A stretch of DNA of 64,000 nt from Terriglobales bacterium. Its GTDB lineage: Bacteria; Acidobacteriota; Terriglobia; Terriglobales; Acidobacteriaceae. The stretch lies in assembly GCA_035624455.1 (NCBI GenBank), contig DASPRM010000156.1:1-64000 (forward strand), read 5' to 3'. The notes below the pieces were generated by a model. It worked only from the letters and a program-made list of their open reading frames with translations. It was not told the DNA's origin and ran no database searches. The position numbers and the translations under genes are program-made. Shown here piece by piece: positions 3,609 to 9,413 of the stretch. Positions within the stretch are counted from its first letter, which is position 1, and each line of letters opens with the position of its first letter.

Positions 3609-4073
3609 GTGAAAAACCTTTGCGTGTTGCTTGTCATGATTGTTGTGGCTAGCGTTTCCCTGTCGGCGCAGGCTGGTTCGAAAAATGAAGCCCCACAAAT
3701 CCCCCGGCGCCACATCAACTTGCCCAAGCTAGTGCAGGCGCCGTTCAGCGATGGCGTGCTGGTGGGGAACACGCTTTACGTCGCGGGCCGCATCGGTCTT
3801 GATCCCAAGACTGGCAAGCCGCCGGAAGATGTGGAACAGGAAGCGCGCAACGTTCTCGATGGCATCAAGTCCGTGCTCGGTGAAGCTGGCATGACTATGG
3901 ACGACCTGGTTTGGGTCCAGGTGTTCTGTCCGGATCTCTCGCTGTATGGCAAATTCAATGACGTGTACAAAACCTATTTCAGCAATGACTATCCGGCACG
4001 CGCCTTTGTCGGTTCCGGTCCGCTGCTGCGCGGCGGACATTTCGAAGTCAACGGCATTGCCGTGAAGCGGTGA
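3609..4073 (+). CDS. Secreted RidA/YjgF-family protein
   Basis: The product has the RidA (YjgF/YER057c) fold, a family whose founding members hydrolyse reactive enamine/imine intermediates from PLP enzymes. Recognisable stretches are VGNTLYVAGRIGLDP, EQEARNVLDGIKSVL, FNDVYKTYFSNDYPAR (the Arg matches the conserved substrate-binding Arg) and FEVNGIAV at the end. Unlike cytosolic RidA it carries an N-terminal signal peptide (VKNLCVLLVMIVVASVSLS). I place the start at the GTG at 3609 because AGGAG lies 5 bases upstream and the signal peptide begins there; the frame itself stays open further upstream. Export suggests a periplasmic role and substrate that cannot be read from sequence. Confidence 0.85.
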   Translation: MKNLCVLLVMIVVASVSLSAQAGSKNEAPQIPRRHINLPKLVQAPFSDGVLVGNTLYVAGRIGLDPKTGKPPEDVEQEARNVLDGIKSVLGEAGMTMDDLVWVQVFCPDLSLYGKFNDVYKTYFSNDYPARAFVGSGPLLRGGHFEVNGIAVKR

Positions 4074-4147: not shown

Positions 4148-4594
4148 CTAGCGCCGGCAAGCGGAGCAGTAACCTCCCACTTCCAGGCGCGCAACCACGA
4201 TACGGAAGGCGCAATCGCGTTCCAGTTGTTGCTTCAGAGAATCGAAGGTTTCGCTGACAAACTCGGTGATCTTGCCGCAGCGCAGGCAGGTCATATGAAT
4301 GTGGTCGCGCCCAAGCTTGCGCTCGTAATAGTGCTTTTCGCCATTCATGTGCATGAGATCGAGCTCGTCGATCATTCCCTGGCGTTTCAGAAGATGCAGC
4401 GTACGGTAGACGGTGCTGCGGTCCACCGAGGCGTCGAGTCTCTGCGCTTTGCGCAGGATCTGGCTGGCGTCGAGATGGCGGTTGGCAGTTTCGATGACGC
4501 TGAGAATGGCGCGCCGCTGCTGGGTCATGCGAATGCCGCGCTCGGCGAGCAGGGCCTGCAGGCGGCCGGGGATCTCAGTTTGAGGGAGGGGCAT
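4148..4594 (-). CDS. Fur-family metal/peroxide-responsive repressor
   Basis: A 148-aa winged-helix regulator of the Fur/Zur/PerR family. The DNA-binding part includes RMTQQRRAILSVIE and the recognition helix DRSTVYRTLHLLKRQG; the dimerisation part has the metal-site stretch YYERKLGRDHIHMTC. Two Cys pairs, CLRC and the terminal CSAC, are expected to hold a structural zinc. The start at 4594 (MPLPQTE) is chosen for the AAGGA eight bases upstream; a TTG start 11 codons earlier is less likely. One Fur-like palindrome lies just in front of the start (4612-4627), which suggests autoregulation, and three more lie ahead of the divergent outer-membrane gene. Sequence alone does not tell iron (Fur), zinc (Zur) or peroxide (PerR) sensing apart. 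Confidence 0.9.
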   Translation of the reverse strand: MPLPQTEIPGRLQALLAERGIRMTQQRRAILSVIETANRHLDASQILRKAQRLDASVDRSTVYRTLHLLKRQGMIDELDLMHMNGEKHYYERKLGRDHIHMTCLRCGKITEFVSETFDSLKQQLERDCAFRIVVARLEVGGYCSACRR

Positions 4595-4611
4595 AGGCGA
4601 TCCTTCCGGTT

Positions 4612-4627
4612 TTGCAACTGATCGCAA
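4612..4627. promoter_or_regulatory. Fur-like box 1
   Basis: TTGCAACTGATCGCAA, an imperfect inverted repeat with TTGC and GCAA ends, 18 bases upstream of the Fur-family start codon. It fits an autoregulatory operator. Confidence 0.6.
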
Positions 4628-4658
4628 TCAAAACGCGACAGAATCTCGGGTCCGCGTA

Positions 4659-4688
4659 TTGACAGGCGAAGAGCGGCGAAAGTATTCT
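4659..4688 (+). promoter_or_regulatory. Sigma-70-type promoter ahead of Fur boxes
   Basis: TTGACA at 4659-4664 and TATTCT at 4683-4688 with an 18-base spacer, pointing towards the outer-membrane gene at 4865. The next palindrome (4701-4721) would lie across the predicted transcription start, the normal geometry for repression. Confidence 0.5.
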
Positions 4689-4700
4689 GAGTTTGTCCCT

Positions 4701-4721
4701 AATTGCGACTCAGTCGCAATT
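4701..4721. promoter_or_regulatory. Fur-like box 2 (perfect 21-bp palindrome)
   Basis: AATTGCGACT, a central C, then AGTCGCAATT: a perfect inverted repeat with 10-bp arms. It is the best of the four boxes and lies about 13 bases downstream of the predicted -10 element. Confidence 0.75.
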
Positions 4722-4777
4722 AACTCCCGCCCCATCCGAGGAAGACATCCACAGGCGGAAGCTGGAGTTTAGATCAG

Positions 4778-4794
4778 TTGCGACTGATTCGCAA
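4778..4794. promoter_or_regulatory. Fur-like box 3
   Basis: TTGCGA-CTGAT-TCGCAA, a 17-bp inverted repeat with perfect 6-bp arms, the same motif as the box at 4701-4721. Confidence 0.7.
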
Positions 4795-4816
4795 GTAGTT
4801 TTTGGGCGCAAGTTAC

Positions 4817-4833
4817 TTGCGACTCGTTCGCAA
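4817..4833. promoter_or_regulatory. Fur-like box 4
   Basis: TTGCGA-CTCGT-TCGCAA, a 17-bp inverted repeat 31 bases upstream of the chosen start codon at 4865. If translation began at the upstream TTG at 4802 this box would lie inside the gene, an argument for the later start. Confidence 0.7.
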
Positions 4834-4864
4834 CGAATTTCTGGCGCATCAAGAAAAGGATATC

Positions 4865-5725
4865 TTGTTCATTCGCTCTAATCGCAGGTCAGTTTGCTTA
4901 GGGGCGGCGATTTGTCTGCTGGTATTGGCTGCGCCGGCACAGGAAGCCTACTTCATCACTTACACCCACCAGATGGAAGAGCCCGGCAACCTGGAAATCG
5001 CGGCCAAGAACGTGGCTGGATTCCCGCAGGGAGGCAACTCGTTTCTGGCTACCGCGCTGGAACTGGAATACGGCGTGAAGGCGTGGTGGACTTCGGAGCT
5101 TTACCTGGATGGTCAGACGACCAGTGGCGAGAGCACCCTGTTCACGGGTTTTCGCTGGGAAAACCGCTTCCGGCCGCTGCTGCGCGAGCACCGCGTAAAT
5201 CCTGTGCTGTACGCGGAATTTGAAAATATCAATTCCGCCGACAAAACGCTGCTGGAAGTGGTAGGGCATGATGGCCGCGAGGATTTTCTCGAACGCAACG
5301 ACCGCAGCGAGAAAGAACGCGAACTCGAGCTGAAGCTGATTCTCTCCAGTAACGTGCGCGGCTGGAATTTCGCGGAGAATTTCATTGCTGAGAAAAACCT
5401 CAGCAATTTCCCCTGGGAGTTCGGCTACGCGCTGGGCGTGAGCCGGCCGCTAGCACTTACGGCGAGCCCGAAGCGCTGCAGCCTGTGCCGGGAAAATTTC
5501 GATCTCGGGGCGGAGATGTATGGGGGTCTGGGGGACACGGCCAGCCTGGGCCTGCATGATACTTCGCATTACCTGGCGCCGATCGTGAACTGGCGACTTC
5601 CCACTGGTCCGAGCCTGAAGATCTCGCCGGGATTCGGCCTGAACGATTACAGCCATGGCTTTCTGTTGCGCTTTGCCGTCTCGTACGAGATCAACCAGGT
5701 GGGTTCCTGGCTGAGGGGGCGGTGA
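4865..5725 (+). CDS. Putative outer-membrane beta-barrel protein under Fur-box control
   Basis: No named family recognised. The 286-aa product has a signal peptide (SVCLGAAICLLVLAAPAQE) followed by alternating polar/hydrophobic strands typical of an outer-membrane barrel (ALELEYGVKAWWTSELYLDG, ALGVSRPLALTAS) and ends in a strand with aromatic residues (HGFLLRFAVSYEIN). A short CSLCRENFD segment gives a CxxC pair. The start is taken as TTG at 4865 with AAGGA four bases upstream; an in-frame TTG at 4802 would place a Fur box in the coding part. The stop overlaps the start of the cytochrome gene by one base (TGATG), so the two are one transcript. The boxes predict de-repression when the cognate metal is scarce, or on peroxide if the regulator is PerR-like. 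Confidence 0.7.
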   Translation: MFIRSNRRSVCLGAAICLLVLAAPAQEAYFITYTHQMEEPGNLEIAAKNVAGFPQGGNSFLATALELEYGVKAWWTSELYLDGQTTSGESTLFTGFRWENRFRPLLREHRVNPVLYAEFENINSADKTLLEVVGHDGREDFLERNDRSEKERELELKLILSSNVRGWNFAENFIAEKNLSNFPWEFGYALGVSRPLALTASPKRCSLCRENFDLGAEMYGGLGDTASLGLHDTSHYLAPIVNWRLPTGPSLKISPGFGLNDYSHGFLLRFAVSYEINQVGSWLRGR

Positions 5726-6126
5726 TGCGGAGATCGGTGAAATTCTGGGTGGTCTTGCCGCTCGTGCTCAGCTGTGTCGGCCTGCTTTTTGCGGGAGCCG
5801 GCGATGGGCTCTGGCGTGGAAAAGTGCCCGAAAGAGATAAGGGGCGAGCCAATCCCTTCGCCGAGAACACGGAAGCCGCAATGGCGGGCGGGAAACTCTT
5901 CGAGCAGAACTGCGCGAGCTGTCATGGCAAAGATGCCGAGGGCAAAGGGAAGAAGCCACCTCTGCGCTCTGAGCGAGTGCGCGAAGCGACTCCGGGTGAA
6001 CTGGAGTGGCTGCTGACGAACGGCAACATGAAAAACGGAATGCCATCGTGGGCGCGTTTACCGGAACCGCAGCGCTGGCAGATTGTGACGTATTTGAAAT
6101 CGCTACAGAGCCCGCCGGGGCAGTGA
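5725..6126 (+). CDS. Small exported cytochrome c
   Basis: A 133-aa monohaem class I-type cytochrome c for periplasmic electron transfer. The N-terminus is a hydrophobic signal/anchor (FWVVLPLVLSCVGLLFAGAG); the haem site is CASCHGKDAEGKG and a plausible axial methionine lies in NGMPSWARL, followed by the C-terminal helix RWQIVTYLKSLQ. The ATG at 5725 shares a base with the stop of the upstream barrel gene and is preceded by a G-rich ribosome site, indicating translational coupling. Being in a Fur-box operon suggests the haem protein serves metal or redox handling with the barrel protein; the partner is not known. Confidence 0.85.
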   Translation: MRRSVKFWVVLPLVLSCVGLLFAGAGDGLWRGKVPERDKGRANPFAENTEAAMAGGKLFEQNCASCHGKDAEGKGKKPPLRSERVREATPGELEWLLTNGNMKNGMPSWARLPEPQRWQIVTYLKSLQSPPGQ

Positions 6127-6374: not shown

Positions 6375-7568
6375 TCATGGTTCGTCTGCTTCGGTCAGTT
6401 CCGGGCCGACGGCGGTCAGGGTTCCAAACAGGCCGTCGGTCTCACCGTTGATGCCCGCAGTAAAGAACAAAGTGTTGTACGGACCCGCGGCCGGCGGCGC
6501 CGGGGGATTGCCGACAAGAGTGCCATTATTGTTACCGAATCCGATCGCCCACAGTCCTGGGATGCTGAACGTGGAGCCGTCTTCGTTGAGGATGTTTCCG
6601 CGGAAATGACCGGTGAACGGGCTGAAGGCAGCGATATTGCCTCCGCCGAATTGGCCGATCAGCAGGCTGTGGCTGAATTCACCGAATTCGCCGGGAGCCA
6701 GGGCAATGCCCCAGGGCGCGTTCATCCAGAGACCGTGTTGGAGGCGCAGCAGTAATCTTCCAGTTGTGCTGAAGACATCGACGAAGCCTAGTCCTGCACC
6801 ATCCACCTCGTCATGTTTGTCGGGAAGCTGCTGCTTGGCAAATGAAACGATGATGTTCCTGCCGATAGCCTGCACGTTAAAGGGGGCATAACCCCCGGGC
6901 AGGCGTTCATCCTCAAAAGCATCTCCAAGAAATTTCACCGGCTTGAAGTTGGTGTCATACACCTCGACTCTGCCGGAGTGGAAATTCGCCGCATAGAGGT
7001 AGTGCTGACCGTTGGCCTCAGCAAGTGTCAGGCCCTTGTAGACTGCATTTTTCTTGGCCACCACCTGGATAGAGTTCAAAGGATCAACCGTGGGATTCCA
7101 ACCCGAAATGGTTCCGTCTTCAGTGGCAAAGAAGAAAACCCCGGGCGCGGGCTTGCCAGCATTAGGCCCGCTGACCGCAATGCCGACTGAAAAGTCCGAT
7201 GTTCCGTTGAACACCGTGCCGGTTGGAGTCGAGCTGCCCGTTGGCGGAATATTGACGACGAATTGCACCAGCTGCCCGTTGACCATTCTCTGGACGATCG
7301 AGCCATTGCCGTTTCCGTTATAGAGGGTTGAAGTGCCAGTGCCGTTGTTCGCCACCCACCAGGGACTGGTGGCGCTGCGGGTGAGTCCCCAGGGATTGAC
7401 CAGGTGGGAATCGAGAAGATTGGGAGCAGGCCCGGGCGGCGCTTTGCTGGGATTTGGATTTCCGACCAGATTCACCTGGTGATAGTGTTGAGCGGTAGCA
7501 AGAGTGGGGAGCAACAAAAGGCTGAGGCCCAGAAGCGACACAAATGCCAATCGAATGCCGAACTTCAT
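6375..7568 (-). CDS. Secreted TIGR03118-family protein (copy 1)
   Basis: A 397-aa exported protein of the TIGR03118 family, whose function is unknown. It has a signal peptide (FVSLLGLSLLLLPTLATAQ) followed by a likely beta-propeller: repeated short motifs NPWGLTR, NGTSDFSVGIAVSG, YKGLTLAEANGQHYLYAANF, VEVYDTNFKPVKF, NAPWGIALAPGEFGEFSHSL and FRGNILNEDG. The start at 7568 (MKFGIR) is supported by AAGGAGAAG upstream; earlier codons in the frame do not look like protein. It is a tandem paralogue of the next gene (7840-9000), same strand, each with its own terminator, so the pair arose by duplication. Context suggests an envelope or extracellular role only. Confidence 0.85.
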   Translation of the reverse strand: MKFGIRLAFVSLLGLSLLLLPTLATAQHYHQVNLVGNPNPSKAPPGPAPNLLDSHLVNPWGLTRSATSPWWVANNGTGTSTLYNGNGNGSIVQRMVNGQLVQFVVNIPPTGSSTPTGTVFNGTSDFSVGIAVSGPNAGKPAPGVFFFATEDGTISGWNPTVDPLNSIQVVAKKNAVYKGLTLAEANGQHYLYAANFHSGRVEVYDTNFKPVKFLGDAFEDERLPGGYAPFNVQAIGRNIIVSFAKQQLPDKHDEVDGAGLGFVDVFSTTGRLLLRLQHGLWMNAPWGIALAPGEFGEFSHSLLIGQFGGGNIAAFSPFTGHFRGNILNEDGSTFSIPGLWAIGFGNNNGTLVGNPPAPPAAGPYNTLFFTAGINGETDGLFGTLTAVGPELTEADEP

Positions 7569-7839: not shown

Positions 7840-9000
7840 TTACGGTTCATCCTCCTCATTGAGTTCTGTGATGACCGGAGTTAGAGTGCCGAACAAGCCG
7901 TCGTTCTCGTCGTTAGGGCCGGCATTGAAGAAGAGAGTGTTGAATGGGCCCGCGCCCGGCGGAACTGGCGGGTTTCCACTGAGAGTACCGTTATTGTTGC
8001 CGAAGGCGATCGCCCAAAGGCCCGGAATGCTGAAGGAGGCGCCGTCTTCGTGGAGGATGTTTCCGCGAAAGTGTCCGGTGAAGGGACTGAAAGCGGCGAT
8101 ATTGCCGCCACCGTTCTGCCCGATCAGCAGACTGTGACTGAACTCGCCGAAGTCGCCGGGAGCCAGAGCAATACCCCAGGGTGCATTCAGCCACGGGCCA
8201 TGCTCTAAGCGCAGCAGCAGTTGTCCAGTGGTGCTGAAGACATCGACGAAGCCCAAGCCTGCCCCGCGTACCTCGTCCTCTTTGTCGTCATCTTGCTTTG
8301 CCCAGGCCACCACGATGTTCCGGCCCACGGCTTGCACATTGAAAGGCCCATAGCCTTTGGGCACGCGGTCATCCTCAAAAGCATCGCCGAAGAATTTCAC
8401 CTGGGTAAACTTGGTGTCATAGACTTCGATCTTGCCCGAGTGAAAATTGGCGGCGTAGAGATAGTGCTGTCCGTTGGCCTCAGCGAGAGTGAGACCCTTG
8501 TAAATGGCATTCTTTTTGGGGCCTACCACTTGAATGGCATTGGTGGGATCCACTGTAGGATTCCAGCCGGCGATGGTTCCGTTTTCGGTGGCGAAGAAGA
8601 AGACCCCCGGAACCGGCTTGCCGGCATTAGGTCCGGTCACCGCAATCCCTACCGGAAAATCAGGGGTGCCGTTGAATACAGTCCCAGTCGGGTTCGAGCC
8701 GGACGGTGGAATAGTGACTACGAGCTTGGAGATGGAGCCATCGTTCCCGTCAAACAGAGTTGAGACTCCAGCGTGATTATCCGCGACCCACCAGGTGCTG
8801 TTAGAGCTGCGCGTCAGACCCCAGGGATTGAACAGGTGGGGCTCAGTCTTGACTGGATTGCCTCCCGGCGGAGGTTGTGTGGGATTGGGATTTCCAATGA
8901 GATTAGTCTGCTGATAGTGCTGCGCCAGTGCGAGGCCCGGCAGCAATAGCAAAGCCAGGCCAAAAAGAGTGGCTGACGACCGTCGAATAGCGAACTTCAT
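7840..9000 (-). CDS. Secreted TIGR03118-family protein (copy 2)
   Basis: A 386-aa paralogue of the protein at 6375-7568. It shares the signal peptide type (TLFGLALLLLPGLALAQ), the HYQQTNLIGNPNP start of the mature part, YKGLTLAEANGQHYLYAANF and the C-terminal LWAIAFGNNNGTLSGNP block. Differences are mainly a shorter loop where copy 1 has an Asn/Gly-rich stretch. The start at 9000 (MKFAIRR) has AGGAGAACG upstream. The two copies remain intact and similar throughout, so both are probably functional, perhaps with different ligands. The family role is unknown. Confidence 0.85.
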   Translation of the reverse strand: MKFAIRRSSATLFGLALLLLPGLALAQHYQQTNLIGNPNPTQPPPGGNPVKTEPHLFNPWGLTRSSNSTWWVADNHAGVSTLFDGNDGSISKLVVTIPPSGSNPTGTVFNGTPDFPVGIAVTGPNAGKPVPGVFFFATENGTIAGWNPTVDPTNAIQVVGPKKNAIYKGLTLAEANGQHYLYAANFHSGKIEVYDTKFTQVKFFGDAFEDDRVPKGYGPFNVQAVGRNIVVAWAKQDDDKEDEVRGAGLGFVDVFSTTGQLLLRLEHGPWLNAPWGIALAPGDFGEFSHSLLIGQNGGGNIAAFSPFTGHFRGNILHEDGASFSIPGLWAIAFGNNNGTLSGNPPVPPGAGPFNTLFFNAGPNDENDGLFGTLTPVITELNEEDEP

Positions 9001-9413
9001 ACGTTCTCCTCTCACTGCTTTATGCAGGACACAAAGACTCATGGGTTAGGGGTGGATCTTGTCCTTCACGAAAATGAAGGCCTGTTCAGGGGAGGCAGAT
9101 CAAAACGTAAAGCATCGGCCGGAGATGGGTGTCATGCGGTCATCAGCAGTTCGTAAAAGTGCATGAACAATGCAAGCCGGTTGTAACAAGAAAATCTGAT
9201 CTGAATGCCGAATGCGGTGTGAGAGAAGCGTGGCAGTTAGGTTTTGCGGATGTGCGACGCACAGACCAGGAGGGTGTCGCGATGGCGGAGAAAGGCGCTC
9301 GTCACCTCCCGAGCGCAAATATGCCGATCTGGTGGCTGAAAAGGAGGCGGGCGACATGGCTCGCTGCTTTGAGCCATGCGCCCACCGAGGAGAGAAGCAG
9401 ATAAAACACTACT
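9001..9413. other. No gene seen
   Basis: About 410 bp between two minus-strand genes. No convincing frame, RNA or repeat; it should hold the promoter of the TIGR03118 copy 2 and the 3' end of the ferritin-like gene's transcript. Confidence 0.4.

Follow-up and report, generated by a model that had tools for sequence, protein, structure and literature searches.

The three palindromic boxes that lie between a FUR-family gene and a divergent outer-membrane barrel-cytochrome operon are probably the operators of the adjacent regulator, a predicted second iron-type Fur protein that would act locally to repress the operon. The window, i.e., the whole 64,000-nucleotide stretch of DNA that was analysed, carries the following features at this locus:

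4148-4594, minus strand: FUR-family regulator, 148 aa (PF01475, E 2.6e-26), divergent to the barrel operon
4612-4627, no strand: degenerate operator-like site, TTGCAACTGATCGCAA, with a spacer of 4 rather than 5
4659-4688, plus strand: sigma70-like promoter for the barrel operon, TTGACA-18-TATTCT
4703-4719, no strand: predicted operator box 1, TTGCGACTCAGTCGCAA, a perfect palindrome just 3' of the predicted -10
4778-4794, no strand: predicted operator box 2, TTGCGACTGATTCGCAA
4817-4833, no strand: predicted operator box 3, TTGCGACTCGTTCGCAA
4865-5725, plus strand: outer-membrane beta-barrel protein of 286 aa with a TTG start, a signal peptide at the N-terminus and 12 predicted strands
5725-6126, plus strand: class I-type monohaem cytochrome c, 133 aa (PF13442, E 2.7e-15), signal peptide

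The earlier note on this DNA had described a group of Fur-like boxes flanked by a FUR-family gene and a divergently oriented barrel gene, and the gene calls and the PF01475 match bear this out. Boxes 1 to 3 are exact TTGCGA-N5-TCGCAA palindromes of 17 bp each, and they are the sole exact matches to this pattern in the window. Two of them start where the note had put them, at 4778 and 4817; the first starts at 4703, not at 4701 as written, and extends into a perfect 11-1-11 palindrome at 4700-4722. The note's 17-bp core stands as a set of exact palindromes, but its 6-bp arms give way to a 7-1-7/8-1-8 reading (TTGCGACTnAGTCGCAA), which describes the boxes better as Fur-type operators. In genome-wide scans, done by pattern matching, the relaxed exact pattern TTGCRANNNNNTYGCAA was found three times in the whole 4.39-Mb genome, each time at the present locus, and the reversed control pattern was found nowhere in that genome. 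When three mismatches were allowed, TTGCGA-N5-TCGCAA showed no excess in the window (35 found, 39.6 expected).

The promoter at 4659-4688 is a consensus match only, with 10/12 matches where 0.1 such sites are expected in shuffles. Its position would put box 1 just 3' of the -10 element. Boxes 2 and 3 would fall within the predicted leader, and the spacing of the successive boxes is 75 and 39 bp. When leaders next to a FUR gene are compared, that of the window is the only one with three boxes, the others having 0-2, which agrees with the note's remark that such a density is unusual. The note was also right to call a fourth site, at 4612, degenerate. This site lies 18-33 nt 5' of the fur start and, by repeat analysis, resembles box 2 minus one spacer base and plus one arm change. 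It fits with the weaker TTGC sites, matching at 12-14 of 16 positions, that lie 19-49 nt before fur in most codirectional orthologous loci, and is probably a weak or decayed autoregulatory site. On the far side of the fur gene, the window encodes a RidA/YjgF-family protein behind a signal-peptide-like segment (3612-4073, plus strand), an unusual location for that family.

A weak terminator-like hairpin, made of box 2 and the T-run that follows it, was flagged by a terminator scan, and the predicted transcribed leader includes box 3 as well as box 2. From these two points one might suppose that the boxes are RNA hairpins or attenuators, or sites of an unrelated palindrome-reading regulator, and that the adjacency of the FUR gene is a coincidence. 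We consider this very improbable. Box 1 coincides with the promoter region, and the fur gene has boxes of its own in front of it; further, as described below, the class of box tracks the FUR orthologue across genomes, in one case in trans, and the same box is found before FTR1 and TonB receptors.

The reading of the boxes as operators of the adjacent regulator is consistent with the features of the regulator itself. Its FUR domain is full length (PF01475, 92.6 bits against a cut-off of 23.1, profile positions 1-120 of 121), and the closest solved structures by sequence, 5fd6/5fd5 and 4raz, were deposited as Fur proteins. Two CxxC structural-zinc motifs, TCLRC and YCSAC, are kept in the orthologue alignment. 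The H, E and HxH regulatory-site positions are kept in the alignment of the orthologues with E. coli Fur, and the His/Glu positions are kept with 5fd6 as well. With the Fur/Mur-type iron (manganese) regulators the window protein shares the FUR domain, the structural CxxC pairs and the first-site His/Glu, and the locus shares a 7-1-7 palindromic operator at the promoter and an autoregulatory arrangement. The differences are in the operator letters, which are TTGCGACT/AGTCGCAA and not the TGAAA(A/T)T of the same genome's general iron box, and in the single target locus found by pattern, which would make the window regulator local and not global. The TTGC box is presumably similar to alphaproteobacterial boxes.

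Other features of the protein suggest that it might read a signal other than iron. Ligands of the S3 type, as in E. coli Fur, are not conserved: the second metal site of that protein (H87/D89/E108/H125) is not retained in the window FUR protein. The orthologues, for their part, have two extra histidines that are invariant (LMH...GEKHYYE). The unconserved second site together with the two extra histidines makes another metal possible. One of the close solved relatives is the Fur protein of Rhizobium leguminosarum, an Mn-responsive regulator (Mur). At the NCBIfam cut-offs the window FUR protein was assigned to no Fur equivalog (best 69 bits against cut-offs of 200-220) and likewise to no PerR or Zur equivalog; the genome's other Fur-like proteins also fell below the equivalog cut-offs, so the NCBIfam models may not cover the phylum. 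On these grounds the adjacent regulator could read Mn, Zn, Ni, Co or peroxide, and the swapped operator would then bring in a new input unrelated to iron. We judge this to be unlikely in view of the company that the regulator keeps: operators of the same class are found before FTR1 iron permeases in several genomes, operons at sister loci carry the iron-Fur box, and orthologues of the regulator adjoin TonB-dependent receptors. Were the protein a peroxide sensor, one would look for it at genes of the catalase or ferritin type, and none were seen in the loci read.

That the boxes belong to an iron-type regulator next door is supported by a comparison of barrel loci in related genomes. The regions upstream of barrel genes contain either TTGC(A/G)ACTnAGT(T/C)GCAA boxes or TGAAATTnAATTTCA boxes. 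At strict cut-offs one of the two classes was present in 68/115 barrel upstream regions, and boxes were found in 3/2016 (TTGC class) and 2/2016 (TGAAA class) background regions. The barrel-side boxes beside a FUR gene (n=34) gave a clear consensus, and 7/11 multi-box leaders had a spacing of 81-84 bp. FUR orthologues at least 64% identical to the window protein were found in about 26 of the 150 related genomes. To relate boxes to regulators, the FUR orthologues were searched in the same 150 genomes and 48 barrel genomes were scored for boxes. A TTGC box (at least 14/16) preceded the barrel in 19/29 genomes with a FUR orthologue versus 0/19 genomes without one (Fisher 2e-6, the compared genomes being related and not independent). 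For the TGAAA box the numbers were 2/29 with an orthologue versus 10/19 without. In one genome (G052) the box was present at the barrel although the FUR orthologue was on another contig.

The tie between box class and regulator had exceptions. The barrel lacked a strong TTGC box in 10/29 orthologue genomes, mostly those with more distant orthologues; at three loci with an adjacent FUR gene about 47-51% identical, the box was before the fur gene instead; and G015 has a FUR orthologue, yet a TGAAA box at the barrel. When the orthologue has no neighbouring barrel, it often has as its neighbour, or as a divergently oriented partner, a receptor that is TonB-dependent or of the related OMP_b-brl_4 kind, and boxes lie in the interval. 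Regulation of the operon by the neighbouring Fur-like protein, which the note had offered as an inference, gains support from the association between box class and orthologue presence, and the conservation of boxes at orthologues by Fur-family genes was confirmed, mostly where the FUR gene is adjacent.

Box class changes seven times on the barrel tree. The informative independent regulator differences number 2-3, all in the expected direction and none contrary (sign test p 0.25). The window barrel falls within a 99%-supported clade of six, and its five clade-mates have a 12/12 TGAAA box and are without an orthologue of the window FUR protein. The best match to the TGAAA box (TGAAAnTnAnTTTCA) at the window barrel is 8/12, i.e., the general iron-Fur box was not detected there. 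Given the clade-mates, it is simplest to suppose that the regulator was exchanged in the window lineage or close to it.

The targets of the two box classes bear on which signal is read. In the window genome TGAAAnTnAnTTTCA occurs at four sites, three of them before FeoB, the FTR1-FtrD operon and another PF13557-like barrel, and one inside a pilin-like gene; it also precedes FTR1-FtrD in six further genomes. Because of these targets we take TGAAAnTnAnTTTCA to be the iron-Fur box of the clade. The second small barrel of the window genome (L230, G000:C75:74557-75504) is a PF13557-like protein of 298 aa and starts 51 bp from an iron-Fur box. Of the usable FTR1 promoters, 38/43 have a box of either class no more than 100 bp from the start. 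The TTGC class was present at FTR1 promoters in 10/28 genomes with a FUR orthologue versus 0/15 without (p 0.008), a grouping by any orthologue that was chosen after seeing the data. With orthologues of at least 60% identity only, the difference was not significant (6/23 versus 3/22, p 0.46), which is due to three genomes in which the orthologues are 55-57% identical and which carry the TTGC box. Genomes in which the barrel and FTR1 share a box class include G083, G009, G047, G085 and G052. In the window genome the two are under different boxes: the TTGC box is present at one locus only, FeoB and FTR1 keep the general box, and the barrel-cytochrome genes are outside the FTR1-FtrD cluster. The window FUR protein thus belongs to a family whose targets overlap with those of the iron Fur, which makes iron the most probable signal. 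The note had held that the signal could not be assigned; from the FTR1 and FeoB targets and the iron-Fur boxes at sister loci, iron can be named with fair confidence, in preference to peroxide. A PerR-type peroxide reading was also considered, and the targets give it no support.

The first gene of the operon is preceded by an AAGG ribosome-binding site before its TTG start at 4865. Its product had no Pfam or NCBIfam match, and PF13557 gave weak matches to 5/30 barrel homologues (best E 0.0064). A sequence-profile search against solved structures gave a best E of 0.13, to an unrelated RNA-binding protein. An AlphaFold2 model made with the 30 homologues has 12 strands at a mean pLDDT of 82.6, and the top structural matches to the model were FapF (Z 21.1) and the COG4313 channel 4rl8 (Z 19.2). 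The predicted 12 strands, with Z of 19-21 over about 215 residues, are what the window barrel has in common with FapF and the COG4313/PF13557-like 12-stranded channels. It differs from them in sequence, with about 9-10% identity, and in having a conserved acidic lumen, a CxxC and a near-obligate cytochrome partner. The CxxC (C205 and C208) is invariant among barrel homologues. The polar face of the strands has invariant or near-invariant glutamates at E44, E66, E68, E78, E99, E118, E153, E155, E185, E217 and E275, accompanied by a few Lys/Arg, and the net charge is negative in 30/30 aligned barrels. With the lumen-facing side assigned by strand alternation, the model suggests a conserved acidic lumen.

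The cytochrome has one CASCH haem motif and a conserved GMPsW methionine region (GMPSW in the window protein). The stop codon of the barrel gene, TGA, and the ATG of the cytochrome gene share 1 nt as TGATG; the note had called the two genes translationally coupled. Barrel homologues were found in 61/150 related genomes. A species-level genome collection contained 215 candidate barrel loci, and Acidobacteriota made up nearly all of the 80 matches listed. After duplicates and distant relatives were dropped, 116 distinct loci remained, and a cytochrome gene lay directly 3' of the barrel gene in 115 of them. Far from being an unusual envelope module, as the note would have it, this almost invariant pair is widespread within the Acidobacteriota. 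The upstream FUR gene at barrel loci is divergent, as in the window, or more often codirectional. Besides the barrel, the cytochrome and often the FUR gene, no conserved neighbours were found, and the flanks vary. A literature search for the barrel-cytochrome gene pair found nothing.

Several observations were made on neighbouring and related loci. Downstream of the operon the window encodes a tandem pair of secreted proteins, similar to each other and each about 400 aa long (6375-7568 and 7840-9042, minus strand); the first of them has no Pfam match. At L069, L091, L168 and L192 the cytochrome beside the barrel is without an intact CXXCH as read, which may reflect a frameshift, an assembly error or a real loss. 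At L251 (G028:C93), about 0.4-2.5 kb from a FUR orthologue, three TTGC boxes separate that orthologue from a divergent gene pair. One gene encodes a secreted-type protein of 558 aa that is unrelated to the barrel, the other a protein of 119 aa with a CILCH motif; the two are possibly a non-homologous replacement of the barrel-cytochrome pair under the same control. At L253 a cytochrome c of the same type is divergent to a FUR orthologue and 0.3-0.75 kb from it, although the genome (G062) gave no homologue of the barrel.

A barrel and a c-type cytochrome so nearly invariant in their pairing, together with the conserved CxxC in the barrel, could form a small extracellular electron-transfer conduit, i.e., a split Cyc2 analogue or a miniature porin-cytochrome, and iron control would then reflect Fe redox metabolism rather than uptake. 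The Cyc2 fused cytochrome-porin does combine a one-haem cytochrome c with an outer-membrane barrel (PMC8406198). The window pair differs in being unfused, encoded by two genes, with a smaller barrel, a soluble cytochrome and iron-starvation-type control. Nor does it resemble the multihaem conduits of the MtrAB/PioAB type, since exactly one CXXCH was present in 111/115 partner cytochromes. The single haem is on a separate soluble protein, a 12-strand barrel is too small for a multihaem conduit, and Fur-type control, which the pair shares with iron-uptake genes, fits acquisition better than respiration. We regard the conduit as quite improbable.

A transport or redox role for the pair in iron entry is a possibility that we put forward tentatively. 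FTR1-FtrD is commoner in barrel genomes, 36/50 versus 41/100 of the others (p 5e-4, uncorrected for kinship), and FeoB is not enriched (13/50 versus 42/100). FtrD was absent from 14/50 barrel genomes and both FtrD and FeoB were absent from 6, which indicates that the module is not strictly dependent on either permease. FeoB as an obligate partner is ruled out by its presence in only 13/50 barrel genomes, as is FTR1 in the strict form of that proposal, at 36/50. In the Campylobacter FTR1-P19 system no outer-membrane receptor is known, iron reduction by thioredoxins has been hypothesised, and some homologous clusters include a cytochrome gene (PMC6083913). The FTR1-P19/FtrABCD system (Campylobacter 1649-1656, PMC6083913) is, like the present operon, iron-regulated, and the window genome has an FTR1 with an FtrD-like domain and an FtsX-like permease behind an iron-Fur box. 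The difference is that the barrel and cytochrome genes form a separate operon that is absent from some FTR1 genomes, the link being drawn from sequence. Iron-type control, the acidic lumen and the FTR1-FtrD enrichment together suggest an outer-membrane entry and electron-transfer step for FTR1-type uptake. In its full form the proposal, which must be called somewhat doubtful, is that the pair may be the missing outer-membrane and redox component of acidobacterial FTR1-FtrD uptake, the acidic-lumen channel admitting iron and the cytochrome supplying or accepting an electron, with control passing repeatedly from the global iron Fur to a second, dedicated Fur that reads an operator code of its own, or back.

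From the computed boxes and their uniqueness, the conserved pair, the tie of box class to regulator presence and the shared FTR1 target, we infer that the regulator binds the boxes and represses the operon with iron as co-repressor. The regulator with its metal bound, most probably Fe(II), would sit on box 1 right 3' of the -10 element and would also occupy leader boxes 2 and 3, repressing the barrel-cytochrome operon; it may repress its own gene via box 1 and/or the degenerate 4612 site. Iron shortage would release the repressor and turn the operon on. The operon would then yield a 12-stranded outer-membrane barrel and a periplasmic monohaem cytochrome c, and the most likely role of the pair, though a tentative one, would be to let iron in through the outer membrane and handle its redox state, so as to supply the FTR1-FtrD permease of the inner membrane. 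In the sister lineages the operon would be under the general iron Fur via the TGAAA-class box, and in the window lineage it would have been captured by the dedicated regulator.

The regulatory reading is well supported by the comparison of genomes. What appears to be new is a second Fur dedicated to this locus, which has an operator code of its own, along with a near-invariant, uncharacterised barrel-cytochrome pair. Acidobacteriota are abundant in soil, and a literature search for an acidobacterial Fur regulon found nothing. The present locus would give two operator codes, readable from sequence, one for each of two iron-type Fur proteins. It would also be a well-defined example of one regulator replacing another, both at the operon and at a conserved permease promoter. 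The barrel-cytochrome pair would be a candidate for the outer-membrane step that is missing in the FTR1-P19 literature.
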